A stretch of 64,000 nucleotides of DNA, from assembly GCA_034620365.1 (NCBI GenBank), contig JAQGEQ010000225.1, positions 186,001 to 250,000 of the forward strand, in the 5' to 3' direction. This document shows positions 654-63,500 of this stretch, piece by piece. The position numbers were made by a program, and so were the translations under genes. Source of the DNA: Pegea sp. RAD2-039 (taxonomy: Eukaryota; Chordata; Thaliacea; Salpida; Salpidae). A model generated the notes under the pieces. That model ran no database searches. It saw only the letters and a list, made by a program, of their open reading frames with translations, and was not told the origin of the DNA. How positions within the stretch are numbered: position 1 is the stretch's first letter; every line of letters begins with the position of its first letter.

Positions 654-1057
654 TCATGAATCTTTAGGTATAAAAGTGAAGATTCGAAGCCCATGCATCT
701 TAGGAACTTCATCTTTTAGAGCTTCAGTGACCATTTTATGTTGTTTAAGAGTCCTAACACCAACAAAATCGACAGTTTCAATCTTAATTTCATACATCTC
801 TCCGCATCCTCCAGATATGTCATTCACTTGTACATTAGAGGCTTTTGGAAATCTATTTTTCAACAACTGATTAATTCGGATTTCTCCATCTGTTGCTGAT
901 GCAGAATAACTCCTAAAAACTGAACCAATTATTAGTGACGTCATCAAATTTGAATTGGTTTTTGGGACTTACAGTTAGTTTGGTTTTTTAGGTTTTCAGA
1001 TTTGTTAGTTGATGTGAATCCTCTGAAAAAGTTTCTTGATACTATTCGAGAAAACAT
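654..1057 (-). CDS. BOLA3: BolA-like protein 3 (mitochondrial Fe-S cluster assembly)
   Basis: Two exons on the minus strand, 1057-973 and 919-654, joined by a 53-bp GT..AG intron, give 116 residues. Exon 1 encodes a Ser/Arg-rich N-terminus starting MFSRIVSRNFFRG, as expected for a mitochondrial targeting peptide. Exon 2 holds the whole BolA domain, with the DISGGCGEMYEI core, the conserved invariant Cys and the C-terminal HGLRIFTFIPK, all close to animal BOLA3. BOLA3 acts with GLRX5 and NFU1 late in mitochondrial [4Fe-4S] assembly (family knowledge). An ATG exists at the front of the exon 2 reading frame, but the spliced start supplies the targeting peptide and uses an in-frame acceptor (TTCAG). 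The intron contains TGACGTCA at 936-943. Confidence 0.85.
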
Positions 1058-2070
1058 TTTTAAGATTATTGATTGATATATGAAATGTCTGTTGATAAAA
1101 TGAAATATTAATTGTTTGAATATTTATTGAACTTATAAATAAAAATTTTATTAAAGTATAAAAGATTTTTTTATTCTTTAAATCAAATCAACTGCAGATA
1201 AAAAATAATAATAAAACTGATATACAATTAAGAATTATGAAAAAAAAACAGTTATTATTATGAAGATAAGATCCAAACAATAAATACATTTTAAAACAAA
1301 ATTTATTCAAAGAAACTTTTAAGTAACTTAAAACTAGATTTTTTAAAACTATTCAAAAATGTTGAATAATAAAACACTTTAGGGTATAATAAAATATATT
1401 AAATGTTTATAAAACTTTATTTATTTTAATATGGTACAAAATTTATATTTCAATTTGACATTAAAACAATTTGATTAAAAAAACTACATTTAAAATAATT
1501 AATATATGATCTTATAAACCAAAAAAGTCGTTAGCTTTTATTGTTCATCAAAAAATTTGTAGCATTATAAAAGTAATTTTTTTTAAATCAGTTAAAATAA
1601 TAATTATATAAATATTTATTATAAAAACAACTCCAGACATATGCTTGTGAAATGACTTTGAAGTAAGCAACGGATTAAATGGCTATTTAAAAAAAAGTAT
1701 AAATTGTTATTTATTATATTACCAAATTTATCAAATTAATACTTAAAGTAAAATTAATTGTATTATAAATTATTTGTTAATAGAAAAATATTAAATTTGA
1801 AACATAATTTAAAAGAACCTGAAGCAATTTGTATAGCAAAAACCCAATTATACATAAAAAGTTATCTATTTTGTTGATAGTATTAGTAAATATATTTGTT
1901 TATTTACTCTACTATGTTTCTCAACGAAACAAAAAGTTATCTCTAATTTTTAAATGTTTCCAGCCACAACATTTTGTCTGATTCAAAATTTTATTTATAA
2001 AACTCTGCAATTTTGGTAGTTTAATTTTTAAACTTATGAAATCACTTTTGTGTAAATTAAGAACCAAACT
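1058..2070. other. AT-rich intergenic stretch
   Basis: Upstream of BOLA3. Low-complexity A/T tracts; no ORF, RNA gene or recognisable repeat seen. Confidence 0.5.
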
Positions 2071-2222
2071 ATATTCAAATTGTTGCAAGACTTGTAAAAG
2101 TAGATGATAATAGTGTGCTTGTATATAAAGCTGGGCATAAAGCTTCTATCTTGCAATCCTTTAAAACTAAATCCACAAAGTCTGAACTTATAACTTTCTA
2201 TCGCCAACCAGCTACTCTTTGA
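2071..2222 (+). pseudogene. Possible decayed Hsp110/Hsp70-superfamily fragment
   Basis: One frame stays open for about 49 codons, from the CAA near 2074 to a TGA at 2219-2221. It encodes a patch ending in SELITFYRQPATL. This resembles the substrate-binding region of Hsp110/HSPA4 proteins, where a V-[FY]-x-x-x-H/G stretch is followed by a LTFYR-x-x-[PF] motif. There is no start, no ATPase domain, and the frame breaks soon after. I read it as a degenerate copy; the match rests on one short motif. Confidence 0.25.
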
Positions 2223-3222
2223 ACTGATACTCCATCAATGTATTCATTATTTCCAATTATTTGAATATCTTCGATCAGATATCGTCAAAGATATCGTCAA
2301 AGATAAAGGTACTGTATCATTTACACTTTTAAAATCTTTGCAAAATCAACCAATAATTTTTATTATTGTAAAGACTTTTTAAGATAAATAAATTTAGATA
2401 AAATATTTTTCACTAAATATAGAAGATAATTCTGAAGAATTTTTAAAGGAAAACTTTAATTTTAGAGTTTTTGATTCTTAAAAACAAATATATATGAAAA
2501 TCTAAGCCATTAATTTTTACGTTAATTGACTATGTTGTCGTAAAATTTATGTAAAAAGTTAGATTTTAATTTTGGGAGCACTCTTACTTTTTTTTATTAT
2601 TTTCAAACTATACGTAAAAACAATCAACAAACATAAGAATTTTGTTTTTATGAAATCGTCGAAACTTTGGGCGGTTACCTTTTAGAAGTCGTGCTTAGAA
2701 TCCAAAGGTATTTTCTTGTCCTTCAAAATGTATTGTTTAAACGATTTTCTTTACTGTAATATTTGTACATTGTTTACCTAATACTTAATTTTACTTTTGT
2801 GTTTATTTTTTGTTTACTTGATATTTAAATTGTATAGAAACTATATTATAAATAAAATTTCAATTATTTAAATACTTTGAAATAAGCAACTTTCTAACTA
2901 TTTGTATTATGCTCTGCTGTTTTAGTTTTTCTTTATTTTAATACTTTCTTAATTTGCTTTTTACACTTTCCACATCTCATAAACTTAAAACTTTTTTGGA
3001 TTAAATATACAAAATATAACTATACAAATATAAAATAAATATACAAATTAAAAGCTTCTTGTTTTCTTTAGATAAATTTATTTCTCAGTTCGTTTTTTTT
3101 TCTTTTTTCGCAAAAATTTATTTATCTAATTCGCTCTCCAAATGAACTTTTGAAAAACAATTTCATAACTCTCAGATATAACAATTTCTGCTTCTAATTT
3201 TTTACACTGATTGTTTAGCGAA
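2223..3222. other. Intergenic stretch upstream of the ELAV-like gene
   Basis: AT-rich. A short direct duplication (GATATCGTCAAA, twice) lies near 2278-2303. Nothing else supportable; the proximal part probably contains the ELAV-like promoter and 5' UTR. Confidence 0.4.
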
Positions 3223-4682
3223 ATGGAGTCCAACTGTCGAATCAATAGTCTTAATTCTACCACCAGTACAGAACACTCCAATTGTAAGTGAACATCTTAT
3301 ATTCTTTCATCTGCATCATCTACTTTAACGCAGCAAAAGATATACAAGAGGAAGAACCTTTTGCAGAATCTCTCACAAATTTGATAATCAATTATTTACC
3401 TCAATCTATCGTTCAAGAAGAATTATACAATTTATTCGAGTCTTTTGGCCCTATCGTTTCTTGCCGTCTTATACGTCACCGTGGAACTGGTGAGATGTCA
3501 CTGATGACGTCACGGCTTGACATCTATTGATGTTTTAGGAGAAAGCTTGGGTTATGGGTTTGTCAACTTTAGTAGTGCTGAAGCTGCTGCGAAAGCTGTT
3601 CAAAAGTTAAATGGAGTTCGAATTCTTCGCAAGACTTTGAAAGTAGTTACTAGGACTAGTTATGACGTCACAATGATGGCGACCATTTTCGATTTGGTTT
3701 TTTTTCTCTATTTAAAATTTTTTTTTTCAAAGAAGCGTTTTAAATTTCAGATTATAAATATATCAACAGATGATGCTCTGGTGGCTTCTCACCATTATTA
3801 TTTGGATTTCTATAAATTAAATATTTTAATTTCAATTTTTTGCCACTAGGTGTCGTACGCGCGGCCGAGTAATCCACAGATTAAAGATACAAATCTCTAC
3901 TTTAGTGGTCTGCCCAGCGGTTACAACATCAATAAATTGACGCAATATTTCGAACCATTCGGCAAAATTATAGCTTCGCGCGTACTTACTGACCAACTTT
4001 CAGGTAAAGAGTGTTTATGACGTCACACTATCGCGTTTTCACCTCTATTTTTAGGTTATCCGCGCGGCGTCGGTTTTGTGCGCTTTGACAAACGCATCGA
4101 AGCGGAACGCGCGATCGCTAGCTTGCATAACAAGACGTTGGATGGAAAGCCTCTAGTTGTCAAGTTCGCTAAAAATCCTCTTTACAACCATCGCCATAAC
4201 AACCATAACAAGTGTCCAAGACGAGCGCATAGCGACCGTAAAACAAGGTGGTTCTCCGCAACGCTTCTTCACTTTGTTACGTCATCTCTTTAGAGCACCA
4301 AATGGTCTAGAGGTTATGACGTCATCGCCACGACACGACTTCTGCATCTTTGTTTTCAATTTGGACCCAGAATGGGACGAAATTAATTTGTGGAATCTAT
4401 TTGGACCCTACGGCGCTATAAGCAGTGTGAAGGTTGCTAGGTTACGTAGGTGAGTGATGACGTCACACTGACGCGCTTGTGTTAATCGCGTAGATAATGC
4501 GCGAGGAGCAAACTGGTCGATGTATAGGATACGGGTTCGTGAATATGATCAACAAACCAGAAGCTGTTAATGCTGTTCGTCAGCTGAACGGAAAACATGT
4601 TTTCAATCGCGTCTTGCAGGTGAGTGATGACGTGATCATGCCGGAAGTAACATCATTGTCGCAGGTTTCGTTCAAGAAATAA
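3223..4682 (+). CDS. ELAVL: ELAV/Hu-type RNA-binding protein, three RRMs
   Basis: Eight exons: 3223-3283, 3334-3489, 3539-3642, 3850-4003, 4055-4247, 4294-4432, 4494-4619, 4665-4682. They give 316 residues with every junction in frame. RRM1 begins [17 protein letters not shown] and has an RNP1 GYGFVNF. RRM2 has TNLYFSGLP and GVGFVRFD. A short basic hinge follows, then RRM3 with [11 protein letters not shown], the LFGPYGA loop, GYGFVNM and the C-terminal VLQVSFKK typical of ELAV. The family binds AU/U-rich 3' UTRs and introns to control mRNA stability and splicing, often in neurons. Introns are 45-61 bp except the 207-bp third. At least four carry TGACGTCA (3505, 3663, 4018, 4458). The sixth donor (AAG|GTTGCT) is weak, but is the only one restoring the RRM3 alignment. 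A polyadenylation signal AATAAA lies at 4791. Confidence 0.88.
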
Positions 4683-4796: not shown

Positions 4797-5758
4797 TTAT
4801 CTGCAGCTGCATGCTGTCAACATAAAATCTCTTGCAGCTGGTTAATCGACAAGTTTAATTGGTTACTACATCAGTCTGTCGGCCGACAATCCTATTTCAA
4901 ATCCATTAATTTGCCAGCTTCAGGTTATTTTAGATAAAACTTTGAGGAGAAATGTTCAAAGATTTTATTTTAATCGATACAAGAAGTTATTTTTACAACT
5001 GGAACGGTGGGTTAGAAGAAAATTGTTTGTCGAAATCAACATTTCCAAGAAAACTTCAATTACAGCTTCTTGTTTTGTTTTAAAAAAATCTTGAAGTAGC
5101 CTCTCTCATTCACAAACCTTCCCACTATTGTTGTTTATCCTGTAGCGTTGGTACGCGCGATGATTTTGTGATGTCATCAAAGGAAGTAATCGACAGTCAC
5201 GTCGTCCTCACGTAATTCAACGTCAACTTATTTAATCGGATTAATGTGGGAAAAGTTGTTGGTGGCGGAAGTAGAATTACCTGAATATCTAGTTATTAGA
5301 ACTCCTGAAATATAATAAAGTTTAAAAATGAAGTTTGGAAACAGAAATAATTTAAAATAGAAAATTTGAAACACCATGTAAAATGTCACTGAAAATGTTC
5401 GCACCACGTCTGTCATCAGCACCGTGAGAAAACGGAAGATGATGAAGGCAATTAGCGCAATCGCTTCGTGACGTCATCAATGCTGCAGTAGATTTACAAC
5501 TAGAATTTTTCAAAACAATTTTTCCTTCAATTATTCGATTTAGATTTGAGAAAAAATTTTAAATTTATTCATAAATTATTTTTTAACTAGATTTTAAAAC
5601 TCGATAAATTTTAATCCGTAATAAAATTAGATTATCTCAAATCGAATCCGTGACGTCATCTATCTTTTGAGCTCAGAAAATTAAAAAATTTTTGAATTTT
5701 GAGTTTTTTTATTGAAAATTTCGCAAAACAGAAAAAAGCCAAAAAAGTTGAAATAAAA
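4797..5758. other. Intergenic or unresolved exon region
   Basis: Contains hydrophobic minus-strand frames around 5228-5480, with a plausible acceptor (ATTTCAG, near 5315) and a donor-like CAG|GTAATT. Two TGACGTCA copies lie at 5469 and 5651. These could be exons of a membrane protein or of the gene behind the 5759-6349 ORF, but I recognise no family and cannot close a gene model. Confidence 0.3.
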
Positions 5759-6349
5759 TCAAGTGGCAAAAATGGCGTCTTGACGACGAAGTCTTTTCAA
5801 AATCGAATTTAGCGAATTACTCCGCGTTTTAAAACTAGGTGTTGACATCACTGATGACGTCACGTGTTCGTCTTCGTCTTCTTTGAGTGTTGGAAGTGCA
5901 TTGTAACATCTCATCGTCATCGACGTTGTAAGCGCTCGAAACCATTCGTCACGTGACGTCATCGATGAGGCACGAAAGTCAATGTGACGTATACGATCGG
6001 TGACGTCATCATACTGACGCCACTCACCAATGACGATATGGAAACAGCAATCATCAGTGACGTCATTAAAAGAACCGCGATTTATAAGACAATTGATAAG
6101 TTTGAGACACGTGATAGGCTGAGCGAATCGATTACTCGAGTCAAACACTACCAAATAAGGAGTTATGACGTTTGTATATAAGCTGACGCGTACTCGTCGC
6201 GTCGTCACTGATGGCGTCATCTTTGGTTTCTTCATCGCTAGGTTATGACGGAATAGTAAAGTTCTGACGTCATCTTTGACTGGTTCTGGTTTGGTGGCTG
6301 GTAAGTTAGGAAGTTGAGAAGTTAGAAATAAATTTCCTGATTTCAACAT
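5759..6349 (-). CDS. Hypothetical protein with possible PH-like domain
   Basis: A 196-codon minus-strand ORF. Residues ~45-140 read like a divergent PH fold: strand-rich segments such as VRVSLYTNVITPYLVVF, a later HIVIGEW, and the closing helix-like SRDEWFRALTTSM, where PH domains keep a Trp. The tail is Ser/Arg/Lys-rich. The ORF carries five TGACGTCA copies (5855, 5954, 6001, 6058, 6265), some reading as DDVTD or MTS. Because the motif is common in introns here, part of the ORF may be unspliced intron; a GTGAGT inside the VIGEW codons is a candidate donor. No family name is justified. Confidence 0.4.
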   Translation of the reverse strand: MLKSGNLFLTSQLPNLPATKPEPVKDDVRTLLFRHNLAMKKPKMTPSVTTRRVRVSLYTNVITPYLVVFDSSNRFAQPITCLKLINCLINRGSFNDVTDDCCFHIVIGEWRQYDDVTDRIRHIDFRASSMTSRDEWFRALTTSMTMRCYNALPTLKEDEDEHVTSSVMSTPSFKTRSNSLNSILKRLRRQDAIFAT

Positions 6350-6358
6350 TTTGACTCA

Positions 6359-6412
6359 AAAGATGCAGAGATCAGAAGATGCAGAGATCAGAAGATGCAG
6401 GGATCAGAAGAT
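6359..6412. repeat. 16-bp tandem repeat, about 3 copies
   Basis: Unit AAGATGCAGAGATCAG repeated a little over three times with one A/G change, immediately upstream of the minus-strand ORF at 5759-6349. Confidence 0.7.
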
Positions 6413-9400
6413 GTCTCAAGAATAGAAAGCTTCTTTAAAAGAGTCTTCAGAAATCTCAACAAAAACTTCTTTAAAATCAAAACTCGGAAATAATCTTTCT
6501 AAAATTTCAAAAATTTTTCTGTTTTTTCTGCTTCATTTCAGCTTTTATTCTTTTTCGAACTTTCTTCTTTTGTTTCTATCTCGCGACACGTAATGACGCC
6601 ATAAAAAAATCTACTTCGCTTTTTTAAAAGCTTTTTTTAATAATTCTCTCTCAGCATCTAAATGTGAAAAATAATTTCAAAAATTTTCTTAAAATTCAAT
6701 AAAAATATATTTGATTCAAATTTCCAATTTTTTTTAATTCTTTATTTTCTAAATCGTTGTTCTGAACAACTTTTTAAAATCAATTTAACAACAAAAAACT
6801 ATTTTACCTGAAAATGGCAACTATTTAAAAAGCCATTTTTGGCCGGTTGTTGTGGCTACCTATGCTCACGGGTTTTTGTCAAAATCGATGTTTGTGTTTC
6901 ACGACAAAAAGCTGTCTTGACGTCATCAATAATGATAATCACAAGACCGGATGGATCAGTTCTTCTGCTTCAGATAATTATTTTTTTAAATTAATTGTTT
7001 CCTTTTAGTCTTTTATCAATATTTTTTTAATTTCTAAAAGTCATTTTGTGAAAAATATATTTTTAAAATGTTAAAAAAGTTTAGAATTATAATCAAAATT
7101 CTACAAATTTATTTGTAAAGTATTTTTATTTAATATATGTTTCAAAGAAAATTGTTAAACTGAGAAATAAATAAACAATAAAGTTTAATTTCTAATAATT
7201 TTGATTTCTTCGAATTGAAAGTTGAATTCAGAACAATTCAAAAAAATAAAAGTTTTGGGTGTGAATAAAGTAAATAAAATATTTCAGATAAAATAATTAT
7301 ACCAAAAACCAAATAAATTAAAAAATATTTATCAACAAAAACAAATTTTAAAAACATTTTTTTCAGTAATTTCATTTTTTCAATTTAATAAAAGAAAATT
7401 AAAAATAGATTTTAATGAAGTTAAAATTCAAAATGTTCAAAAAACTTTTTCTTTTTTTCCTTTTCGAAACTTTTAAATTTTCCGTTTCCTAAAAATATGA
7501 GTTTTATTAGGATCGAAGTAATGACGTCATCAAGAGACAGAGGCGAGATATGACGTCATGAGATTAATGAATCTTTTACACGACTTTGTTGAGTAAACAT
7601 CATAACAAAACTCTGACGTCATTGTTTTCATAGATTGGGTCAGGTGACGTAGTTACTGGTCAAGACGGAAAATATTTTGATGACGTCATAGTTTACTTCG
7701 TCGTTGTTTTAAAAAGAAATAAAAAAAACGAAATTTTGTTTAATAAAGCGTTTTGACTCAAAAACGCGATCTTGAAATTACTAGCAATGTTTTATCGATT
7801 TTAAATTGATGTTACCGAACTAAGTATGACGTCATTAGTGTGGAAAAGACGATTTTATTTATGTTTAAAAACTGAACTTTTCATTGAACGGATAAAATGG
7901 CTTAATTTAATTTTGCTTTTCTCTTCTTTTTGCTTAAATTTTTTTTTTAAATAAAGAATTAAAATGTTGATGTCATTACTTTGATTGAAATTATTTTGTG
8001 ACGCAGGAAAGACTTGCTTTTGTAACAAGATAACTTATATTAAGATAGATTCTTGTAAATAAATTAACCTTTTTTGCGTCAATGAAAAACTTATCAATAT
8101 TAACCGATTTATTAGCTGAGAATCAAAACTTCTTATCTTATTCTTTAAGTTTACATGAAAATCTATTGAATTTTGAAACTTTCCAATTTTTAAACTTTAG
8201 GTTTAATAAAAGAATAAATTTCTTTTAAATAAATACGAAGAAAACATAAATAATAATTTACTTTTCAAAGAATATATTTCTTACTTCTATTTTCAAGTAA
8301 GAAACCTCTAAATTAATAATTGATTTAGACATAGAGCTCACTAATTGAGTCTTTATCTTCATTTCTTACTTCATCTTTTCATTATTTCTTGTTTCTTATT
8401 TTATCCAACAAATTTGAAGCGTTTGAAGTTACAACGTTTTTGAATCTTAATTAATTTTTCTTCCATTTTTGTATTTGTTCAAATAAACTTCATAAAACTA
8501 TTTCCACATTTATTTATTTTCAATTATTCTGAATTTTCTTATTAAAGTAACACTTTGAAAGATCAAATCCAGGAGTCAAACATCCAGGATTAGAAAAGAT
8601 CTTTAAATGAAAATGAAGATTTGAGTCTCAAAAGTTGCCCAGATTAGAGAACTATTTTTTGAGAAATTTCAGATTTTGATTTATTTACAATTTGCTCATT
8701 TGCAAATCACCAATGAGGTAACTTAAAGAGTGCGTCACTCGATTAACCTTTAATTTTCATCAGTCGGTTTATTTGTTTCTCAGAAATTAGAAAGCTTGTT
8801 TGCCAGTTACTAATCAGGTAACTGAGGCTGACAGGCTTACGTAAGTTCAGTGATGAAAGTAAATCACGAGTAGTCACTTTAAACCAAGAAAGATAAAAGA
8901 TGGAAAATATTTCATGGCAATAAGGGTTTGGCTGGGGTAGGTAAGTCGTTGACAACATTAGACAGTGAAAGTTATCAACATGATTAGAAAGAAGGTTAGA
9001 AAAAGTTTCAAATTCAGTTGAACATCAAAACTTTGCTTAGTATGTGCGTTGTTCTTAATATCTAACAATTTAAACATTAATTAGTATGTCAGTCTTAACA
9101 TTTTAAAAGCAATATTTGATTGAAAATTGATTATAAATCGTAGAAGTAACTTTTATTTAAAGTTTAAATCATCAAACTGTAAAAGACCATTTTGTCACAT
9201 AAATGAATAAAACTTCTATAAAGCAATAATAAACAAATATATGAGTTCAGTTAGTACATTTTCTTATTTATAAAACATAAATTCCTTTCAATTTGTTCTC
9301 TTTTTACTTTAACTTGAACTTTTGAAATGAATAATTAATTTTTAAATTAAATTTTATTTAAACAAAATACTTATTACTATTATTACATTATCTACTTTCT

Positions 9401-15999: not shown

Positions 16000-17390
16000 T
16001 CAAATTGTATTAAAAGAAAAATATTTCCTGAACCACCTACTTATACACCAACCAAAAAAAAAGTTATTTCAAAATTAAAAAATTAAATTTTGAAACACTA
16101 AAAAGTTGAAAAAAGATCTTTACCAACAGCCGTAGAGGAAGATGAGAAGACTAACAATAAGACCAATAGTGGGGTCAAGGAACCACAAATCCGGGTAAAT
16201 CTTTAGGACTTCCGTGTTTACTACAATCGAAATCGCGATTACAGCGGCAGCCGCCGAATTTAAAGCTGAAAATATGAATGAAAATTTGAACAACAATAAA
16301 AACAAGAAGCGGAAACTCGGTGTGAATCATAAAACAACAAACCGTCGGTGAATAGAGTGCACGATGACAACAATTTTGCTAGGACCAATTTAAAGATGAC
16401 CAAAATGAAACAGATGACAGCAGATACTAATGACGTAATCAGTAGTAAATTGAAGCCTTGCATCTAAAAGATCACGTGATTAGAATGACGTCATCAAGCT
16501 TTGATTGAATTACAGAAGTTGATAGGAAGTGTTGATGAAGATTAAAGGCAGCTTTGACAGAAATAGTGATTGAAGAACAGATAAAGAGAAATCCAAGCAC
16601 CACGCATGATCTAGAAGAGATGACGTCATCAGTACGTCATCACAAGCTACTCGCTTACATGTTTTCACGTTGAGTTGGAGCTTGCTGATTGAAGTTGTAG
16701 AACCTCCATAAGACTACAACAGAACTTAGAAGATCCAAGATAGCACTGAACTGAAACAGAAGAAGATGAGAAGAAATCACTTCGTGATGAAAGACTTACT
16801 GCCAATCCAAATGCTGCTGTGCTGTTTTCACGAGATGATACAACTGAAAAAGAATACTGCTGATGACGTCATCATCTTAAATGTTGTTACAAACCGAATT
16901 CGATGATACAAATTGCGAGAGTTGCTATAATTGAGATCCACGAGATACAGATTGCTAATGATTGGTGTAAGGTTTGATTGTTTTCACAAAATAATGAATC
17001 TTGAAAAGGAATATATGAGGCAAGCTTTTGATGAAACTATTAGTCATGTTTTTGTGAACAGGAAAATGTTTTTATTAACTTCAATATTGTTTCCGGGTTT
17101 ATTTTTAGATTGATTTGAAAACCAGTTGATTTTAAAATTAAGTTCACCTGATTTTCCAAAGTTTGTTTTCTCATCTGCACTTGATTCCTTTAATTTTTTA
17201 ATAATAAATTTAGAAACTTTAAATAAAACTATTTGGTTTTATTTATATACAATTTAAAATTTACTTTTTTTAGTTTTATTGGAATTACCTTGGAGTTTTT
17301 TTGCTTTTCACATCTTGAGTCCTCAATTATCTCGTTGAATGAGATGCTATCATCACATATATTATAGGGTACTTTAGATGACTCGCCCAT
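16000..17390 (-). CDS. TMEM163: TMEM163-like zinc efflux transporter
   Basis: Nine minus-strand exons: 17410-17289 (Met at 17390), 17187-17148, 16999-16895, 16843-16800, 16750-16659, 16610-16514, 16463-16343, 16265-16124, 16036-16000. They splice in frame to about 259 residues. A hydrophilic N-terminus is followed by about six membrane segments. Characteristic stretches are FSAILDLLSSVVVLWRF, FKLVLAKLLSSCTLFTD, and DLWFLDPTIGLIVSLLIFLYG. TMEM163 is a small cation-diffusion-facilitator relative exporting Zn2+ from endosomal and synaptic vesicle membranes (family knowledge). The start is the least certain point; a further upstream exon is possible. Introns are mostly 43-101 bp, and three contain TGACGTCA (16486, 16621, 16864). 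Confidence 0.78.
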
Positions 17391-17410
17391 CAAAAGATCT
17401 TTATCTACTT

Positions 17411-18690
17411 CTAAATTTAAATAAAATTAGTTAAAAATATTTTAAAGTTATTTTTTTTTCTGAATACTAAATATAGACTTATTAGCTAAAGTTATTGATA
17501 AAATATAATTTAACATCTTATTGAACATTAAAAGTCTAATTTTTTAAAAGCTGCAAAATTATTAAGCTAAATTCTATTGAAACAAAGTATTAAAATATAA
17601 GCTATACAAGAAAATTGTCAAAATAAACTCATATTAAACAATATAACTTGACTTAAGCTGTTCAAAATTATTTTTTAAATAATAAATCTTTTTAATAAGT
17701 AAATAGTTTTTAATTAATTTGTAGAGAATTAATCTTTTTTTTCTTTTAAATAAAAAAAGAGATTTTCTTTTTTAATTCTTGTTTTAAAAATGTTTTCTTT
17801 TTTCTACTACATGCTGATTAGGACTAAAATGGTAATATATTAAACTGGCATAAGAGTTTGTTTCAACTTTTATGTGAGTAATACAAAAACAACAAAAAAC
17901 TTGTTTACTATTTCAAAAAACTAGATGCAAAATAAAATTATAATAGTAAATTTGTCAAAAAAGTTTAAGTTCTATTTCAAATAAGTAGAAAGACAATTGA
18001 AAGGAATTATTTGTCTAAAAGAAATGATTTGAGTTAAAACTTTAAAAGTTTATTAGAAGTCTACCTAGAAGCTAAAACATGATAAACAAAAGCACATTAG
18101 ATAACAAAAAAGTTCACCAACTTTTAAGTTTTCAATGAAATCAATTTGAAAGGCTAAATTCAATTTTTCTAAAAGCAAAAAACTAAATAAAAAAGTTCAA
18201 ACCTGTTTATCTACTAAATTCAAATTTACTTCTTTTCATTGAGTTGAAACCACATTTCACTTTAAGCTTTACCCTTTTTTAATTAGTTATCAAAAACTTA
18301 GGTTCCGTTTTTTTGATATTAACTATAGAAGTATATCTCTAGCAGGTAGCAAAGAAATTAACAACCAAACATCTTGATGACGTCACTTCCGCCCGATGAC
18401 AGCGTGGCTTGACACAACTTAATCATTCATATAAAATCGGAAATGGAAAATAGTTTGAAGAAAGAAATATTTTCTTTGAATTTTAGCTCTAAAGTAACAA
18501 ACTATTTTTTTTATACAATTTTGTTGTTATCTGTTGTTACCACATCTGTTAGATTTTGTTGTTGATCGGATAAAACTGTAATTTGATCTTAATTAAATAT
18601 TTATGAAAAATTGAAGCAAACACAAAACAATTTAGCTTTTAATTGTTTCAACTTCTTAATAATAATTCTCAATTATTATTCTAATAATTT
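17411..18690. other. AT-rich intergenic stretch
   Basis: No gene recognised. One isolated CpG-rich patch near 18374-18420 carries TGACGTCA (18378) and may be a promoter element or a remnant of a repeat. Confidence 0.4.
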
Positions 18691-20795: not shown

Positions 20796-20799
20796 CGAA

Positions 20800-22040: not shown

Positions 22041-28478
<6,438 letters not shown>

Positions 28479-29011
28479 TGACGTCATTGACTTGTGGAAT
28501 AATTGATTTGTAATTTAAATAATAAAATAGGAAATAGGAAATAAAATAGGAGAGGAAATTTTCTGGTTTTTTAGAAATATTGAAATCATTGTTTTTGTTG
28601 AAAGTTATTCGTGAAGTTATCTGTGGTTCATAAATATTAAATTTTAAAATAAAATTTCTGTTAATTAAATAAAATACAGTTTGTTGAAATTATAAGTAAA
28701 TAATAAATAATTATTAACTACAAAATCTTTAATTATCTTGTTAACATCTTAACCAACTTTACAAATATTTCTAACTTCAAATAAAAGTTAAATTGACAAT
28801 TTTAGATTTTAGTAATTTGTAGAAATGAGTTTACATTTAAAATATTAATTTAGAAAGTCTCTTTTCACCTTTTAATACTTCCTGTTTTATAGCCAAATAA
28901 GAATTTATAAGAAGTTGAAATGCAATTTTATTACTTTACTGCAAGACATGCAACAAAATGACTTTTCCAAACTCAAAAACCATTTTGAAAATAAACCAAA
29001 ATTTTAGAAGA
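28479..29011. other. Convergent 3' flanks of ABCC and the MARVEL gene
   Basis: AT-rich. AATAAAA-type signals near 28520-28550 probably serve ABCC. Nothing else seen. Confidence 0.45.
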
Positions 29012-29564: not shown

Positions 29565-30832
29565 TGTTTGTTTAACAGTTTTATTGTTAAGCCTGAAATG
29601 TGATTGTTGAATAAATAAAAGATTTCTTTTTTCTACTTGTATTTACTTTGTAATAAAAATAAAGCTTAAATGCTAATAATTCCATCAACAAAACACTAAA
29701 CTATATGTTGCTAGAATGGAAATAAAAATATCAAATCGAAGAAATCCAGAAGACAAATAAACCTCAAAATTTCAAAGTCGTCACGCTTCAATGGTTTTAA
29801 TGAATTTTATGAAAAAATAGAATAAGATGACAAACCAAAGTTATCTTTGATAAAGTTGTTTGAAATAAATAGAAAATTACTAAAAAGTATTTTGAAAAAC
29901 TGTTATAAAAAAGTTTTTTTAAAATAACAATTATATTTAATATATACTTTCACCATTTTCATAATTCGTTTCTTAGATTAAAACTTTTGAAAACTAACAA
30001 AAAATAAAAAACTTTTCTTAATTTTTAAATATTTAAAAGATGAAGAAAGTATTAAGATAGCAACTTAAGTTATATCATGTTCTAAAAACTATTATTAGAA
30101 AACGTCCGTTAGGAAAACACGTCACCAACACAACAATAAATTGAACTTTTATCAGTTTTAAACTAAAAAACTACAATTTCTGCTTAAAAAAGAGTTAAAT
30201 TCAAATTTTAAAATTCTTTCTAAGCTATTAAAAGAATGTTAGTCATAAAAGAAAGTAACTTTCATCAAATAACTGATTACTTTTCAAAATCTTCAACATT
30301 TCTATGATAATACCACAAAATAAAATAAATGTTTGTCTACAAGTAAATCTGAGTAACTTTTTATCTCTGCTTGGTGTTTACTAAAAGGTGTGTAACTGCT
30401 GACGTCATCAAGCCTTCTGATTTGCTTCACTGATCACCGTCACGCGCTGCTGGTTTTGTTAAAGATTAACAATTTAGGAAATAATATTTTAAAATCTTCT
30501 ATTCTTCAGCAGAATATTCTAGAATTTATTTTAAATTTTTGATAAAAATTTAATTTAACATCAAATATTATTTTAATCGAAATAAAAACAAAAAAAACAT
30601 TTCAATTTTTTTATTTTTTTTTCTTCTCTTTTTCATAAACTTAATCATCAAAAAAAATTTGAAAAACTAAAAATAAATTTTTGAGAAAACTACCATTCAT
30701 TCATTGATTGATGACGTCATCGACTACTCAATGATGAGGTCATCGACTTTCTCATATCATGTTTTTATCTGTACTTAAAACTTAATTTCCAGTTTTTCTA
30801 AATTAATAAATTAGTAAAAGTTCCGCTGCTGA
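29565..30832. other. AT-rich intergenic stretch
   Basis: No gene recognised. TGACGTCA copies at 30400 and 30712 lie in otherwise non-coding sequence between a divergent 5' end (MARVEL) and the 3' end of the next minus-strand gene. Confidence 0.45.
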
Positions 30833-30840
30833 TGACGTCA

Positions 30841-49495: not shown

Positions 49496-52400
49496 TTAGT
49501 TTGAGTTATCAATGTCTTCAAAACTTCCAAAGATCTGATCAAACTTTTGTTGAACAATTTCTTTAACCTGAAACAAATAATCTCCTAAAAAACCATCTGA
49601 AATTTTCACATTTAAATCTAACATGAATTTCAAACTTTTCAAGGTATCTTCCGTATTGTAAATTATTAGAAAGGTCATCTGATAATCTTAAAAACTCTGA
49701 AGCAGTCGATTTAGTTTCTAAGAGCTCAGGAAAAGCATCTGTAGATTCAGATAAACCACCACGTGACGCAGACAGTCTCGTGTTCGACTTTCCTTCCTTG
49801 CTTTTAGATCTCTGTAAAGATGTAAAGTTATTAAGAATTAAGAGAAGATCTTTTTTGTTTACATCTCTTTTAGCCTTCCGCAACATCCGGTCATCTCTAT
49901 TCGATTCTGTCTTCTTCTCTTTTTCTACAAAAACCCGAATATTATGATGATAATTATTATCATAAATGAAATAATTCGATAATTATTATCATAAATGAAA
50001 TAATTCGATAATTATTATCATAAATGAAATATTCGATAATTATTATCATCAATGAAATATTCGATAATTATTATCATAAATGAAATAATTCGATAATTAT
50101 TATCATAAATGAAATATTCGATAATTATTATCATCAATGAAATATTCGATAATTATCGAATCAGCTGATTGAAGCGGATGCAGCATTCCAAAATGTCCTA
50201 AGGCATCACCAGCAAGCAACGAAAGCTCTTTGCAACATTCACCAATTAGCTCGCGCTAAAGCTGGCATGACGTCATATCAATGACGTCACAATCATTACC
50301 TTCGTCATCAGCGGTCGACTGTTGGTCGTTAGTGACGTCATCGTGAAGTTGGACACGGTTGCTGTTGCCTAGCAACAAATCATACTCACTTATAGGTTGA
50401 GTTGACTCTGAAGAGTTGAGGTAAAGTTCATTGATCTTCATCAAGGTCTTCAGACGCAAAGAGCAACTACTGATCTCATCCAACATCTCGCAAAGAGTCG
50501 CGGCGCTGTTGTGACGTCATCAATGACGAGGTGTGATGACGTGTTTGAGGGCTTACGCGATGTTATATTTCGCTTCGGTGATCGGCAGATCAGGTGGTGA
50601 CGTCAGACCGCGCTCGATGACGTCATTGATGCCGGCCAACAGCGTCTCGCACGCGTCCATATCTTCAATCTGACGGACTCGCTCACACAGATCCTTGATG
50701 CAAAGATTCCATTCAGGGCGAACTTCCTCGTCACAATCCGAGTGCAACTGAAGATGAAGATCAGGAAGAAGATGAAGATCAAAAGATGAAGATGAGAAGG
50801 AGGATGAAACCTGCCGATACATCTGCTTCAGTTCATTCACAACTTGATAATTATAAAAAAGATGAGGATTTGAACTTTCAAAGATCTGCTGCTCAGTGAT
50901 GTTGGCTTCAAACGGTGAAAGACATCTAAAAAAAGAAGATCTGATAAAAAAGATCTTAATCACGAAGATCAACCTCTCAGGAGTGCGAATCCCACTAATC
51001 AAATCCCAAATCATCTTCCCGACTACTCTTTCAGCTTCTTTTCGATCTAAAACTTTCTCAACATCATCACATCGACGTCGCAAATCTTCTCGCTGTTCCT
51101 CATCCGTCGCGACTCCTCTCAAGATCAACTGAAGATGATGACGTCACACAAGCTCGTGAAGTGACCAGGGGCACCTTACAGTTAAAGGGCGCCCTGAATC
51201 GAGAAGAGGGCGCGTGTCGAAGCGCCACGTCTCGTAGAAGATGCCGACATTTGGTGATTTGAAGGTGACGGGCAAAACAGCGACATCATTCGGAAGAATC
51301 GAACCTAAAACGCGATTTAGCGGTTCAAACGTCATTCGGCGGCGAAAATCAACCAACCGTGACTAGTGTCGAAATAAAATCGCTGAACCGTGTCATGCTT
51401 GATGACGTCAAAACTAGGAGAGACCGGAAGACGACTCCAATCAAAACTGATCAAAGTACTTCCGTTGTTCTCGATCCGAATCGGTGTGACGTCACAATCA
51501 TCAGTAGGAGACTCGAAGTTGACTCGAACCGCGTTTCCCTCGTCTATCTGTGACGTCATCAAAATTATTGATGTGGTTTCGCGTCACGATTGATTTATGG
51601 ACCTCGTAGTCAATTGCTGGTCCAGTCCAACGAACAGGTTGGCCACAAAACACTATAGATGGTCCATCAAAATGATTAATTGGTCGTGAACTAGATGGTT
51701 GAGGATCTGGGCCATATTGGGCAGAAGCCACTTTGTCGACTGGTTTCAAATTTTCATCATTTTTAACTTCCGGTTTCTTACAAATGATCTCCAAATGATC
51801 TAAATCCTTCAACATCCGATCTCAGATCATCAGAGATCATGATGAAGATCAACTTACAGCTTGATGAGGTAATTGTCGAACTGATTTAAATCTTTTCTTG
51901 AAATATTCGTTATTATCTTCTCTCCATCTGTTCTTCATCTTCTCTTCATTACTCCCTCTAGCGGCTGTTTCAATCTGAATCGTCTTCGGCTTCCCAATTT
52001 GCTCTACACTATACAGTGATTGATGACGTCATCAACGCGATTCTTCCTCACCAAGAATAAAGGGAGCTCCACTTTGTGTCTTCCCTTTAGTGAGCTTTAA
52101 CCCGAAATCTTCATCACCAACATTTTGGGGTTGATCCCAAAACTCCGTCCCTTTCCGATCTGTGAGATTTGAGATCTTAGAAATCTTCTTTTAAAGTCAT
52201 CTTACTCACATCCGAGTCTCGGTGAAGGAGCGAAATTGTTGACAACATCTCGTCGCTCCAGTTTTGATCTCCACAAATGATCTCCGTTCATGATCAATCT
52301 TTCAATCGGTTTGTTTAAAAGATCTGATTTTAATGAGTTGTAGCGCCACCTAGTGGTGAGGGGATGAAGTGGGACTTACTGGAGATACGGATTTGTTGAT

Positions 52401-55960: not shown

Positions 55961-58339
55961 TCAAAGTTTCAACAAAGTCGGAACATGCCAGTCGTTAATT
56001 CCTTCTTCTTCCTCTTCATCTTTATCATGTGACAACAAAGAGCTGAACAATTTATCGAGATACTGCCGGTTAACTTCAGAAGGATCAGGAGTCACTTCTG
56101 ACATCAGCTGTTCGAAAGTGGCTGTTCGATAATGCTGGGCCATTTTCTGCTTGCGGACATTTTCTTCCTTCATTTCTTTTTTATAGTTGGAAATTTGCTG
56201 TTTTAGAAACTTGAAAGTAATCGCGCTGGCGGGAATCAGCTCTTGATCACTCGCAGATGAACCCTGATCAACTTGGGGCGGCTCGATGTTGATCTGAATA
56301 GAATCCGTCTCCGTCAACACCATACTTCGAACACTTCCAGATTCAAGAGCGTTGTGACGTTGCTGTGACAACGGTTCATGGATACGATCTGCAGAAAAAC
56401 CGCTTCGACCTTTGAAGGCGGCGTGAACTGCTTCAGGAGTGAAAAGAATCTTCTTCAAGATGGAACTCAGCTCCAAATCCGTGTCCTGCTTCTCTGAGTT
56501 GAGACTTTTCGGGAGCAAAAGCGGATGAAGCGCGCGACGCCGCTCGAAAACTTCTGTTACATAATCCTGAAGTTCAGGGACAGCTGAAAAGTGGGCTAGA
56601 AACAACATACAGCAACCAGTGGCAGCAAAAACCCGGGTCACTAGTCCAGTAGAATCAGGTGATGACGTCATATGGTCCACAGCCGCGAACTGAACAGCGA
56701 GAAGCAAACGGCACATCTCAATCAAGGTGTCCGGTGACGTCACAGACAAACTGATGATGATGAGACACTCGCATAGAGTCGCGAAGTTGATGACGTCATT
56801 GTTGTTAAGCAGGAATGAGTGATAGAAGAAATTGATGATGTTAGGAAGTTGAGAAGCTAGAAATTCGCGATCAGCTTTCGATGCGTTGCTAGGTAACAAA
56901 CCGAGAGCTGAAATCTCTGTGAAGGTATCGACAAATCGAAGTCGAGAAGAATTGTTGTTTTTATCAGTTAATTTCAACAAAACTTTCGTTGTTAGAACTC
57001 TATCAGCTGGTTCAAGTGCGATAGATAGTTTCAATAAGGGGTCAATGATAAAAGAAGACATGGAGGATAGATTGATGTTCTTGTAGGGCTGACAGATCTT
57101 CAAGACACACTGAAGGATCAAAGAGATCAAAATTGAATCATTTTCAGCTTGCTTGGGTGATTGAAGAGAAATTGTATCAAATATTGTAGAAACTTTATTC
57201 AAATAAAAAGTCATTGCCTCAAGTTTTTGGTAATCTGGGATAACAAACGCAAAAACTCCAGCAGTCTCTAAAATCTTCTGTCTCAGTAGCTCTTGTGGGT
57301 CATCTGGAGATGATATAGTCTTCATATGCAGCGCTAAAATGTTGAAAGTATCAATTACAGATGGACCAAGAGCCACAGATGAAGGTATTGGAACTATTGT
57401 ACATAAAACATCAAGAATACTGACTTTAGTTGATTCGTCTTCTAGATGATTACTTAAATGATCTAATAATGACTTCACAACTAAATGACTATATTGTGAT
57501 TGAACAGAATAAACAATCACTGTAAACGCTTTGGTTGCAAAATTGTTGGATGGAACCCATAATTTATGAGTATCTAAATGTTCTTCAGCAGGAATTAGAG
57601 CTGTTGTTAGAGTTGGGAAAGATGCCTTGCTAAGAAGTTCACGTAGTGCTTGCTCTGCAAGGAAAGCTGGGTTTTGGTCATCAGCTGGTGTACTAGAATC
57701 TTTCACAGTTATATCGAATGTGTTGTCTTGCATATTAATCAAAAGTGAAGGAACAATTTTATTCATATGTGGTTTTTCCCAAATATTAACTTGTAGTTCA
57801 TCAGAAACAGTTTTACGGATGACTCCTTGAAGGCCACGAACTCCATGTTGTCTTACTAACAAACGGATATTTTGGTCAGCATCATTATTGTGACACATTG
57901 CACTGAATTTAGAGACAAAAAAGTCATAGCGACGATGATAAGAAGCTGTGTCTTCCTCTATTTTTGAAAACTTTACAAATGAAACAGTACCAAGAACTTG
58001 AAAGTTTGGATTGTTTGATTCTAATAAAGTTGCCACCATTTTTAAAAAACTTTCAACAAATAAGTTAATTTGTTGTGAATGACAAGCAAGTAGTAACTGG
58101 TTTAATGCTTCCATCGAAATATGAACAGAACCATCTCGTCTTCGAGCTATATCTCTTCCTAAAATTGTAGATAAATATTCTCCAATCCTATGAAGTTTTT
58201 CAGGAGCTGACAGCGCGTAATAAGTGAGTTTTTCCATCTCTGATCTTCTTATACCTTCAGAAGGGTTACTAGGAAATATATTGTCAACTAAACGTATATA
58301 TCTAGCTTGACATGATTTAAGGCAACACAACATAGACAT
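55961..58339 (-). CDS. EFR3: EFR3, plasma-membrane anchor of PI4KIIIalpha; intronless
   Basis: A single 792-residue ORF. The N-terminus MSMLCCLKSCQARYIRLVDN keeps the Cys cluster palmitoylated in EFR3 proteins, followed by IFPSNPSEG and SEMEKLTYYALSAPEKLHRI. The rest is an ARM/HEAT-like helical rod, with YDFFVSKFSAMCHNN and HGVRGLQGVIRKT typical of the family. EFR3 recruits TTC7-FAM126-PI4KA to the plasma membrane to make PI4P (family knowledge). Vertebrate EFR3A/B are ~820 residues, so it is full length. There are no introns. Three TGACGTCA copies lie in coding sequence (56663, 56735, 56791), within the more CpG-rich 3' half. Confidence 0.9.
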   Translation of the reverse strand: MSMLCCLKSCQARYIRLVDNIFPSNPSEGIRRSEMEKLTYYALSAPEKLHRIGEYLSTILGRDIARRRDGSVHISMEALNQLLLACHSQQINLFVESFLKMVATLLESNNPNFQVLGTVSFVKFSKIEEDTASYHRRYDFFVSKFSAMCHNNDADQNIRLLVRQHGVRGLQGVIRKTVSDELQVNIWEKPHMNKIVPSLLINMQDNTFDITVKDSSTPADDQNPAFLAEQALRELLSKASFPTLTTALIPAEEHLDTHKLWVPSNNFATKAFTVIVYSVQSQYSHLVVKSLLDHLSNHLEDESTKVSILDVLCTIVPIPSSVALGPSVIDTFNILALHMKTISSPDDPQELLRQKILETAGVFAFVIPDYQKLEAMTFYLNKVSTIFDTISLQSPKQAENDSILISLILQCVLKICQPYKNINLSSMSSFIIDPLLKLSIALEPADRVLTTKVLLKLTDKNNNSSRLRFVDTFTEISALGLLPSNASKADREFLASQLPNIINFFYHSFLLNNNDVINFATLCECLIIISLSVTSPDTLIEMCRLLLAVQFAAVDHMTSSPDSTGLVTRVFAATGCCMLFLAHFSAVPELQDYVTEVFERRRALHPLLLPKSLNSEKQDTDLELSSILKKILFTPEAVHAAFKGRSGFSADRIHEPLSQQRHNALESGSVRSMVLTETDSIQINIEPPQVDQGSSASDQELIPASAITFKFLKQQISNYKKEMKEENVRKQKMAQHYRTATFEQLMSEVTPDPSEVNRQYLDKLFSSLLSHDKDEEEEEGINDWHVPTLLKL

Positions 58340-59454: not shown

Positions 59455-59765
59455 GTGGAGTGATAACTCTTTAAGATAGTAACAAAGGTTTAGAATTCCT
59501 TTCCCAATTCCATCACTACATCAAAATCTATGACCTTTTTTCAAATGTTGTTAAAAAAATATGATTTTCTCAACAAATGAACATTGCAAGTTTTTCACTT
59601 CTTCTCCTTTTGTTAGATTTTTTATAACCTAAATTTTAATTCTAAAATGTTCTTATTCTTTTTCTAATAATTCTAAATTATTTTCATTATCTTTCAGCTC
59701 ATATTGTTTAATATAAGAGCTGTAGAATTTGTCACTCGCAGCCATGCGTTGAATAAATAAAATGC
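59455..59765 (+). mobile_element. LINE-B 3' end copy
   Basis: Forward copy: decayed ORF end (NSFPNSITTSKSM, preceded by a stop), then 3' UTR ending CACTCGCAGCCATGCGTTGA and ATAAATAAA. Confidence 0.7.
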
Positions 59766-60567
59766 TTTTAAAGACACTTTACGGTAAACTTTGTTGTAAT
59801 GTAAGCTCTATACTTTAAGATAAACATTTCGGTATAATAACAATTAATTTAAAAAAGAATGTTAATATTTATGAACTAAAATGGCCAATTACGTATTTGC
59901 CTTCCTGGCTTTAGTTTAGAAAAACTTTTTGTCAATGTGATAAATTATTTAAAAAATCTCCTATCGACATTTCCAATAAATGACAAATTAGATCAGCTTT
60001 TTTAGAAAAGTATTTCATCACATTTTATTCTAACTACACTAACAGCTCAATTCTTTCCTTGAAGTTCTGAAATTAGTTTAAAAAAATGATTACATCAAAA
60101 ACTGCGTTTCTATTTTATAGAAATTGTTGAGTCGAACTGTTTATGAAAATCTTTAAAAGTTTTTTATGAAAAAACTAATCAGTGATAACTTATTATTTAA
60201 CTTTTAGGTGTCTTCTTGAATTTTATGTTTTATGTAAATAATTTAATGAATTTGAAAAATTGTATTTTCCACAGTGATAACCAGTTTGTTGTGACGTTAA
60301 TAGAATACATCGTAAGTCAGGTTTAATGTAGATATTAACTTAGAGATTCTTTGCAATAGTTGCTCAATTGACAATCGAAAATAAAAATGGTATAACAAGT
60401 CCTAATGAAGATAAATATGATGAAAAAAAAGAAAAAAAAAGAACAATTTTGTTAGATACAAACACAACTGAATTAAATGAGTTTTTTTTTTTGTATAATT
60501 ATTTTGTTAAAGTAGTTAGTATCTAGAGATTTGAAGATAAACAACATCAGATCCAGTTTGAAAGATC

Positions 60568-63500
60568 TCAATTCTTTTTACCACCTTTACTTTCTTCTCT
60601 TTTCTTAATCGTCTGATGAGTTAAACACAAAAGCCGCCTGGTCGCGTCACCGTCAATTTGAGTATAAGCAGTTCTAAAAATAGAAAATCAACCTCCAATA
60701 ATTATACAATCCAAACTTACTCTTCAGATTTAGTAGATTGAAGAGGAACAATCTGGTTTCTAACATCACCAGTATGATTAACCGGTTTCACATGAACATA
60801 ATCAGTCACTGTTTCAATCTAATAAAATAAACTTCAATCAAAACAAACCATCAACTAAAACATCAACTAACTATATTTGTTGCTCCTATATTACAAATAT
60901 TTTCTTCTGTTGTAAGAATCGAAGGTTTTGGGGGTCTTTCAGGGACATACTTTCCAAACTCACTCAAAGGTGTCCGCGGGGAACCACTTGATTGGCTGCT
61001 GGATTTCGGAGGTCTTGGTGGGGCTGATACTAATATAGCTTTTCCTTTTGGGATGTCCATAATCGGTGAAAAACATCCGTTACTAAACAAAGAAGAAGAT
61101 GTGGAAGATATGAGAGATGATGACGATTTGTAAGTTGGTATAAAGACTGGTTTCAGTTCTCTTTTCACTGGTGGTGGTGGTTGCCTAGTGGTTGTAGGTT
61201 TTGGTAGATAAGTATTGATGATTGGAACCATATCTTCGTATGAATCTTCTGTATTTTGATATTTTTACAATTTAGTTTGATTGGAATCACTTTTACCTGT
61301 CACTGGAATGATGTGAGTGATTTTGTTCATCAATTCATAAGATTTATCATTCAAATCCAAGTTCTCATACTGATGAGAAGCTTCAGTGCTTGATGTAGAG
61401 TTTTTTGAAGGAGGTAAAAGAACTAAATCTGTAGATGAAGATTTGAAAAGATGTTAAAGATTAGGAAAGATCTGACCAGCCATCGAAGATTTATTTGCTT
61501 TTGTAGAAGATGAAGAACTCGTTGTCTTTCTCCGGACAGACACTCCTTCTTTCATTTCATCTTCGAAATCTTTCTGCAGATTCACAAACGATCCAGAGAC
61601 TGGTTTAGGGGGCCTCGGAGGTGGGACTCTTGGTATATTTGACAAATCAATCTGTCCACAATCAAACATCGCTTTAAACTGGTTGTCAATGGACCGCCTT
61701 CTCGGGCAGCTGGGGGGCATCTCATTGACATAAGTCTCTAACTGTCCCACACTTGAGCTTCTTCTGATCTTATTCCCTTCTTGTCCATAATGGACCATTT
61801 GTGGTGGACGCTCGACCACCATTTGAAGAAGAGCTGGTTGTTGGTTCCGTGGATTTGGGGGCTTGTTATCAATCGAAGAGGAACTAAGATGATGATAAGG
61901 ACGATGATGAGGAGTGAACGGAGGAGACAGATAAGCGGATGGTGAACTGGAACTCTAGAAGAACAATCTTCAATTGATGGTTTGAAAGATGGTTCGAAAC
62001 AAACCATCGTGTCGTTTCTAGTGGTTGAATTGATGGTTCGTTTCCCGTATACAGCGGCAACCGCGTCTGTCGCGTTCACGTAATTCTGCTGCGAGTTCTG
62101 ATGAATAAACGAGAAGATGCACGAATTCTCGCCACTGGAAGCGCTCTTGATGTTCCCATGAGACGGAGATTGGATGAGGAGTTGATTTGGGGAGGTTTCC
62201 GTGAAGTTGGGGTACCGTTGATTGGTTGGAAGGTTCGATGGAAGAGCTGAAACCAGAAATCAGTTTAATTGGTTCATCGTTGAGTTATTAAACTAAATTA
62301 TCAGGAAAAGGAATTGACCGCGCGCGTAATTGATGACGTCATTATCACGTGAGTTTGGGATTAGATACGAATGTCGCGCGCCGGAAATGACGTCATCACT
62401 TACTTTTGTTGAGCGCGTGAATTCGGCTTTCGGCTTCTTTTTTAGTTGTGATCTTCTGAAGAAGATTAAGATCGAAAAGATGAAGATGAGGATCAGAGAT
62501 CTTACCTGGATGTTGCTAATCGAAGGTTCAAAGACGTCATCATCATCGACTGTGACGTCATTGCGTTCGTATGACGCGTTATCTGCGAGAAGATGAAGAT
62601 TAGTAGAGCAGCAAGGATGAAGATTGGGACATACTTATAGGTGGAGGTGGGGGCGGACATGTTGGGATACTACTGAGCCTTTCTTTGATATAAATTGATT
62701 TCTCGTCGAATTTATTCCAATAAACCGCCTTGTTGGTGGTTAGTAATGGTTGATTAGATGGTTCCTGGTTACTACTGATTGAATGGTGACCATTACTCTG
62801 TGGATGGTTGTTATGGTTTAAAATGGTGTTTAATGGTTGAAAGGTTTGGTTAGTTGCAGAAGTTTTAGTAAAGCAGGCTTTGCCGAAAATACAAACCTTT
62901 AAATAATTACAGTTTTGTGGTTCTGGGTTTACATCAAAGGATTTACATTCGTTAAGATGAAGATAGTTGTCTTGGAAATCCTCATCCAGCAAAAGCTACA
63001 GTTACATGTTACAGCGAGATGAGCAAATAGTTATTTCGAGAAAAAGCTTTTTGAATTAGTAGCTTTATCACATGTTAATAGTTTCAAGTACCTGTGACTG
63101 GTCGAGACTGGTTGGAAAGTTAAGGTGTGTTGCTGAATCTGAATTTAGAAAAACATTTTAACGCTTGGGTAATTGTGTATGGCTCATTAAGTTTCAACAG
63201 AAAAGTTTTTGACTGAAAATGTTGAAAGTTTAGGAAATAATAAAAACGTTTACTGGTGTTAGAGGTGGTGCAATGGGTCTTATCTCCGCTTGCATTTCCG
63301 ATAGAGGTCCCAGAGGTGGACTCATTCAAGCGTGAAGGTTCAGCAGTCACAACAGTGAGGTGATTGTAAGGAGAATTGGACTGTTGACTGCTGAAAATAG
63401 ATCTGATCAATATTACTACGTCATTTTGAAAATCGTTGAAAGTTTGAAATGAATTTATCGAAGTTTAAGATGAAGATGTTTGTGTCTTTGAAACGAAGAA

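Follow-up and report, generated by a model that had tools for sequence, protein, structure and literature searches.

Two kinds of described sequence element are among those closest to the one that we report here. In cyanobacteria a single exact palindrome, the highly iterated palindrome HIP1 (GCGATCGC), reaches a density of about one per 1000 nt; its one-base deviants tend to differ at the first or last position, and Elhai proposes a methylation-directed repair ratchet as the cause (excerpts of PMC4390886). The best-known site of basic leucine zipper (bZIP) proteins, the cAMP response element (CRE), is the palindromic octamer TGACGTCA. CRE 8-mers are among seven words common to worm, fly and mammal groups, and in a table of conserved upstream words, which we take to be mammalian, CACGTGAC and TGACGTCA stand at the adjacent ranks 18 and 19 (extract of PMC551538). 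Here, we describe TGACGTCA as an iterated palindrome in a 64-kb stretch of DNA, G000:C38:186001-250000 (the window), and in the 105.7-Mb genome (387 contigs) to which it belongs. Both the octamer as a bZIP site and iterated palindromes in cyanobacteria are known already; their combination in an animal-like genome, exons included, appears to be new. Among the open-access matches listed, judged by titles and the openings of abstracts, none concerned an iterated TGACGTCA in eukaryotes, and the string of the 14-bp extension TGATGACGTCATCA was found in no paper of one open-access library.

Results

TGACGTCA is over-represented throughout the genome

The window holds 56 exact copies of TGACGTCA, where a first-order Markov model expects 0.50, which bears out the original prediction of about 56 copies against roughly 0.5. 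No other of the 256 eight-base palindromes is as numerous in the window. Ranked by count over expectation TGACGTCA is fourth, and the three words above it have only 1 or 2 copies each. A second palindrome, TCACGTGA, occurs 5 times where 0.5 are expected.

The over-representation is genuine and genome-wide. We counted 27,792 copies of TGACGTCA in the genome and 969 of the reversed word, which is without the CpG. A stricter control is the class TSWCGWSA, whose 16 words share base make-up and the central CpG. Together they have 41,263 copies, of which TGACGTCA and TCACGTGA contribute 32,406, and the remaining 14 words average 633. The excess over this matched mean is 44-fold for TGACGTCA and 7-fold for TCACGTGA (4,614 copies), which is thus a second over-represented palindrome and lies partly in TGACGTCA islands. 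The suggestion that the CREB/ATF site behaves as a genome-wide iterated palindrome is therefore supported: the count is nowhere near that of the reversed word, and no equal excess was found among 8-mers of the same composition. The 14-mer TGATGACGTCATCA occurs 1,972 times, its reversed control not once.

The same picture emerges from the wider class WSWCGWSW. Of the 96 such words in the window 56 are TGACGTCA, while the other 63 words of the class average 0.63 each. We also sampled fifteen 10-kb stretches at round coordinates on 15 contigs, one of which overlaps a previously known site. Here TGACGTCA makes up 46 of 108 words and the others average 0.98. The copies are clustered: 6 of the 15 sampled stretches have none and three have 10 to 16. 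When window and samples are cut into 2-kb bins (107 in all), the variance-to-mean ratio is 4.4, and 74 bins lack a copy where 41.2 such bins are expected. On average a copy occurs every 1.1 kb in the window and every 3.8 kb in the whole genome.

The exact word and its flanks are preferred

Exactness, location relative to genes, CpG content, companion words and correlations over open reading frames were studied in 257.6 kb with 120 copies. This set includes three loci (L001, L003, L004) selected for the 14-mer, which carry 8 of the 120 copies, as well as loci chosen as bZIP neighbourhoods (L024-L034) and one (L005) that overlaps a previously known site.

Within 300 bp of the copies (37 kb in total) exact TGACGTCA is found 120 times against 0.52 expected, an excess of 230-fold. 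Its 24 one-base neighbours together are found 28 times against 12.5, or 2.2-fold. Without the three loci selected for the 14-mer the counts are 112 against 0.47 for the exact word and 27 against 11.3 for the neighbours. The excess among the neighbours sits in TTACGTCA (6 against 1.1), TGATGTCA (7 against 2.0), TGGCGTCA and TCACGTCA, all small counts. A bias to the first and last base, as in HIP1, was not seen among the deviants (3 against 1.8 expected, again small counts). Genome-wide, the CpG-transition neighbour TGATGTCA has 5,503 + 5,567 copies compared with 1,373 and 1,300 for its reverse, and hence some decay of TGACGTCA is visible. Assuming an equilibrium of mutation with selection, or with a mutation bias, it would take a scaled pressure of about ln(103) = 4.6 to account for the ratio of 103; this value is derived and not measured.

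Outside the octamer the 3′ base is usually a pyrimidine (the 5′ base a purine), giving R-TGACGTCA-Y, followed by C/A and A; around the window's 56 copies the preference fades to near background by about 7 bp. T or C follows 70 of 84 half-sites in exons, 84 of 88 in short introns and 55 of 58 in long introns and intergenic DNA. The total, 209 of 230, covers 115 of the 120 copies, the five in tiny exons being excluded. This is the consensus with R/Y flanks that one expects of a bZIP site. Since coding and non-coding DNA share the preference, an agent that reads at least 10 bp of DNA would be its natural cause. TGATGACGTCATCA is, we presume, the in-vitro consensus of JDP2/BATF3-type bZIP proteins.

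The islands lie largely in modelled gene bodies

Genes were modelled with a home-made program trained on the same sequence. The models over-call introns relative to intergenic DNA, do not reliably separate intergenic from long-intron assignments and can misplace single copies; transcription starts are not annotated in them. Most copies fall within modelled gene bodies, in introns and exons alike, as the original prediction had it. Short introns between exons are densest (34 of 120 copies, 2.89/kb), followed by exons of at least 50 bp (42 copies, 0.57/kb), other short introns (10, 0.52/kb), tiny exons (5, 0.34/kb), long introns (28, 0.22/kb) and intergenic DNA (1, 0.10/kb). Both coding and non-coding DNA are thus affected, and without the three 14-mer-selected loci the densities are 2.95/kb in short introns and 0.51/kb in exons. 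A copy is present in 29 of 223 short introns, at no fixed position; the offset from the 5′ splice site varies between 3 and 58 nt. The idea of a role in splicing remains unsupported, because copies also occur in exons and are spread out within short introns.

Open reading frames of at least 180 codons contain 22 copies, 10 and 12 in the two phases that avoid an in-frame TGA and 0 in the third. In frame, TGACGTCA encodes Asp-Val or Thr-Ser. One 685-codon frame (L014), which has no Pfam match, contains eight copies. The spacings show no clear helical, nucleosomal or codon periodicity: values at 200-220 bp are weak, and the mod-3 counts are 83/57/83.

In the window the copies form the following groups (positions are those of the window):

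936..943, minus-strand gene: isolated copy in a BolA-like gene
3505..4465: island of 5 copies in a gene for an RRM protein
5469..7834: island of 13 copies
16486..18385: island of 4 copies, including one full 14-mer (16861-16874)
22852..28486, plus-strand gene: island of 12 copies in and beside an MRP1-like ABC transporter gene
30400..31437: island of 4 copies, including one full 14-mer (30830-30843)
50268..52031, minus-strand gene: island of 11 copies in modelled exons and introns of a MYCBPAP-family gene, with a full 14-mer at 52021-52034
56663..56798: three copies within 136 bp of a single long open frame that matches EFR3, in two reading phases
62334..62560, minus-strand gene: island of 3 copies in and near modelled exons

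The clusters, the empty stretches at 8-16 kb and 31.5-50.2 kb and the three full 14-mers (16861, 52021, 30830) are as originally described. The copy at 936 had been assigned to BOLA3. The open reading frame there does match Pfam BolA, but the site itself falls within 60 nt that score as an intron (ends GTAAGT...TTTTTAG). In the RRM-protein gene, 3505 and 4018 are in modelled short introns, 4317 is in an exon, and 3663 and 4458 are in longer modelled introns that by eye are short ones. The copies at 5855, 5954, 6001, 6058 and 6265 lie inside a minus-strand open frame that matches a PH domain, three copies being inside the match itself (5762-6355), a stretch that the gene model reads on the wrong strand. 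The model of the MRP1-like gene places 25564, 27864, 28099, 28324 and 28346 in short introns and 25193 (doubtful), 25910 and 27770 in exons. A 28-bp tandem array (49949-50156) directly adjoins the island at 50.2 kb. A tRNA and Rfam search of the window gave no match.

CpG and companion words peak around the copies

GC and CpG content climb over the last 50-100 bp toward the copies, in each of three compartments separately. Comparing positions 4-25 bp from a copy with those beyond 1600 bp, CpG observed/expected is 1.34 vs 0.67 in exons, 1.09 vs 0.52 in short introns and 1.43 vs 0.67 in long introns and intergenic DNA. GC outside CpG climbs less, for example from 0.219 to 0.283 in long introns and intergenic DNA. 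Across 24 open reading frames, CpG content correlates with motif density (Spearman rho 0.60, p 0.0018). The CpG peak lends indirect support to the chromatin role that was among the causes first suggested.

Certain other words accompany the copies. Within 150 bp, on both strands, observed counts compare with the local Markov expectation and with the rate elsewhere as follows: CACGTGAC 8, 0.36 and 2.67; TCACGTGA 14, 1.01 and 2.46; ACGTCATC 11, 0.76 and 0.92; AACGCGAT 10, 1.43 and 0.92; GTTGCTA 14, 1.54 and 4.21. As the E-box word is over-represented elsewhere too, its association with the islands amounts to no more than about 3-fold for CACGTGAC and 6-fold for TCACGTGA. Close to copies (within 150 bp) the pair AACGCGAT/ATCGCGTT has about 11 times its frequency elsewhere (10 vs 0.92 scaled).

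bZIP and methylase genes

A profile search of the genome finds matches to bZIP_1 over the cut-off at 12 places, two of them near-identical. Nothing about this number is striking, and we rejected an expanded bZIP family as the cause of the excess. One bZIP exon, presumably ATF6-like, lies within 3-kb stretches on two contigs (L034 on C21, L035 on C37) that are 99.25% alike and in opposite orientation; these could be either haplotigs or a duplication.

C5 methylases (PF00145) match at 11 places, seven in open frames that are 832-873 codons long and one in a frame of 603. The one frame that we checked has a BAH and a methylase domain and is DNMT1-like. Given that the genome encodes DNMT1-like methylases, the depletion of CpG away from the sites is plausibly due to methylation and the peaks at the sites plausibly reflect protection. 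The methylase frames lie on C57, C249, C32, C52 and C262 (L036, L037), two of them about 4 kb apart in opposite orientation on C57, and one has a neighbouring frame that by eye resembles a reverse transcriptase. Perhaps these genes are an expanded, retrocopied DNMT1-like family.

Copies in repeats

Contig C322 (L038-L041) contains diverged repeat units in direct and inverted orientation, with the palindrome at corresponding positions in them, and 9 of the genome's 42 extended 18-mers are found on it. Two of the units, which differ in 47 of 2645 columns, differ at 2 of 6 sites. Eight diverged rows were also aligned, and one site is intact in 4 of them. At a second site 6 rows align; it is intact in all 6, amid about 20 bases that do not vary, and a stretch in the other two rows that by eye looks related is broken. 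This test is small and mixed: it speaks against uniform freezing of the sites in repeats and is silent on genes.

Unusual 18S rRNA sequences turned up on two further contigs. On C1 (L022), close to the end of the contig, an AT-rich tandem array stands in place of the first part of an 18S gene; C278 (L020-L021) has partial, divergent 18S matches. These copies are possibly pseudogenes or assembly effects. By its 18S/5.8S sequence the genome may be that of a bilaterian, perhaps a spiralian; no COX1 was detected.

Discussion

So many clustered copies of TGACGTCA, in coding and non-coding DNA alike, lie far outside what chance would produce, and ordinary gene control hardly accounts for them. Across 105 Mb this 8-bp word is 44 times as frequent as its matched words, which calls for a cause. 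We put a probability of roughly 0.45 on the reading that the copies are elements bound by CREB/ATF/JDP2-type bZIP proteins and held by weak selection or by bias of any kind. Flanks, companion words and a CpG peak of about 100 bp suggest a bZIP-bound open element. Exactness, occurrence in both coding and non-coding DNA and sheer number suggest that, as with HIP1, some directional pressure favours the exact word. Under this reading, a CREB/ATF/JDP2-type protein would occupy TGACGTCA at thousands of intragenic places, in the germline at least. Its presence would leave the DNA accessible and free of methylation over about 100 bp at each site, and CpGs would survive there. In such open, CpG-rich stretches a weak directional pressure (about 4-5 scaled units) would favour new exact copies over one-base variants, and these would accumulate wherever the protein sequence or the intron tolerates them. 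That the sites are bound and hypomethylated, that they are occupied in the germline, and what kind of pressure acts on them is what we infer from the genome sequence.

Several observations weigh against this reading. The bZIP set is of ordinary size. Ordinary factor sites are degenerate, unlike a word whose one-base neighbours are enriched only 2.2-fold when the exact form is enriched 230-fold. By raw rate, CACGTGAC is only about 3-fold commoner near the sites. The exons that by eye encode HARS have a CpG value of 1.11 and no TGACGTCA; the one piece compared with Pfam gave no match. Copies can be dense in long open frames, such as the eight in the 685-codon frame, and they keep neither a fixed intron position nor a helical, nucleosomal or codon phase. 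Finally, near-identical repeats on C322 that differ at 2 of 6 sites indicate that sites there are not strongly held.

One could also argue that the regulatory part is superfluous, and that a bias of repair, gene conversion or transmission toward the exact word has produced a eukaryotic highly iterated palindrome. The extreme exactness (230-fold vs 2.2-fold) would follow, as would the presence of copies in introns and, within long open reading frames, in either permitted frame (0, 10 and 12 by phase), one flank preference across three compartments and a weaker second palindrome in TCACGTGA; at equilibrium a scaled bias of about 4.6 would suffice. Pure drive, however, predicts spread everywhere, yet 74 of 107 2-kb bins are empty where 41.2 are expected and long introns are poor in copies. 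Neither the companion words nor the CpG peak are predicted, repeat copies show losses, and the deviants, in small counts, are not biased to the first and last base as they are in HIP1. We know of no machinery for such a bias and think this explanation rather unlikely. A related idea borrows from the meiotic hotspot M26 of fission yeast, a site (ATGACGT) that is bound by Atf1-Pcr1 (excerpts of PMC9775316). By analogy, a bZIP dimer might open chromatin and recruit the break machinery, and biased conversion might enrich GC nearby. Non-CpG GC is indeed higher near the sites (0.283 vs 0.219 in long introns and intergenic DNA), but the same excerpts report CRE sites that are not hotspots. In our data the CpG effect is also much larger than the effect on non-CpG GC. 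Moreover, conversion normally removes break sites rather than adding them. On balance a hotspot origin seems improbable to us.

Explanations that do not invoke the word itself fare worse. If a dispersed repeat or mobile element carried the palindrome, alignable flanks should be shared. This holds for some repeat units on C322, where 9 of 42 extended 18-mers lie, and for duplicated stretches in L019 and L034/L035, but around the window's 56 copies the base composition is close to background from about 7 bp outwards, and copies are found within open frames with conserved-domain matches. We rejected a repeat family for the genic copies because they have no shared flanks, and an origin of this kind is very improbable overall. 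A splicing signal or an intron-gain element would account for the density in short introns (29 of 223 with a copy) and for splice-like ends scoring 7 or more around 17.5% of copies compared with 8.3% of shifted controls. It is at odds with the 42 of 120 copies in modelled exons and with the 3 to 58 nt that separate copies from the 5′ splice site. Flanking hairpins, which 936 and 3505 resemble, were likewise rejected, since over the 120 copies the arms are no better than in re-paired controls (mean longest stem 4.07 vs 4.06). We consider intron-borne origins more far-fetched still. That the sites lie in GC- and CpG-richer DNA might suggest plain composition. The matched words rule this out for practical purposes: in the window TGACGTCA has 56 copies and the 63 other WSWCGWSW words have a mean of 0.63, and genome-wide there are 633 copies per matched word against 27,792.

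The bZIP-bound element may itself be the target of a bias. In this stronger version a transmission or repair bias ("palindrome drive") acting on a bound, unmethylated site would write the palindrome into introns and exons, as a eukaryotic counterpart of HIP1, with enough strength to set Asp-Val or Thr-Ser genome-wide. We regard this as possible but doubtful. Should the sites be bound, nature has run a saturation experiment in this genome, one that bears on bZIP occupancy, the protection of CpGs and the tolerance of coding sequence. Should they be driven, this would be, to our knowledge, the first case of a sequence-specific bias toward a palindrome shaping the genome of an animal; codon usage, protein evolution and the HIP phenomenon, itself unexplained, would have to be seen in that light.

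How do the sites compare with the described systems? With HIP1 they share the dominance of one exact palindrome far above expectation, and densities are of similar kind: one per 1000 nt for HIP1 (excerpts of PMC4390886) and one per 1.1 kb in our window or one per 3.8 kb in our genome. They differ in that the host is a eukaryote, the copies form islands and the pattern of one-base deviants is another (small counts). Also, we found no sequence-specific orphan methylase, in a search for a cognate enzyme that covered family PF00145 only. Like M26, the sites are CRE-like, and M26, too, is bound by an ATF/CREB-type dimer and active inside coding sequence; M26 is not described as iterated in this way in the excerpts of PMC9775316. 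With the CRE and other bZIP palindromes the sites share the octamer, the purine and pyrimidine flanks and the vicinity of CACGTGAC, which is listed beside the CRE (extract of PMC551538). Here, however, there are tens of thousands of exact copies, many of them in gene bodies and exons, and few degenerate ones. Intragenic CpG islands are likewise short CpG-rich stretches, and this genome, too, has DNMT1-like enzymes and is CpG-depleted elsewhere; in our case the stretches are on a scale of about 100 bp and centred on one exact palindrome.

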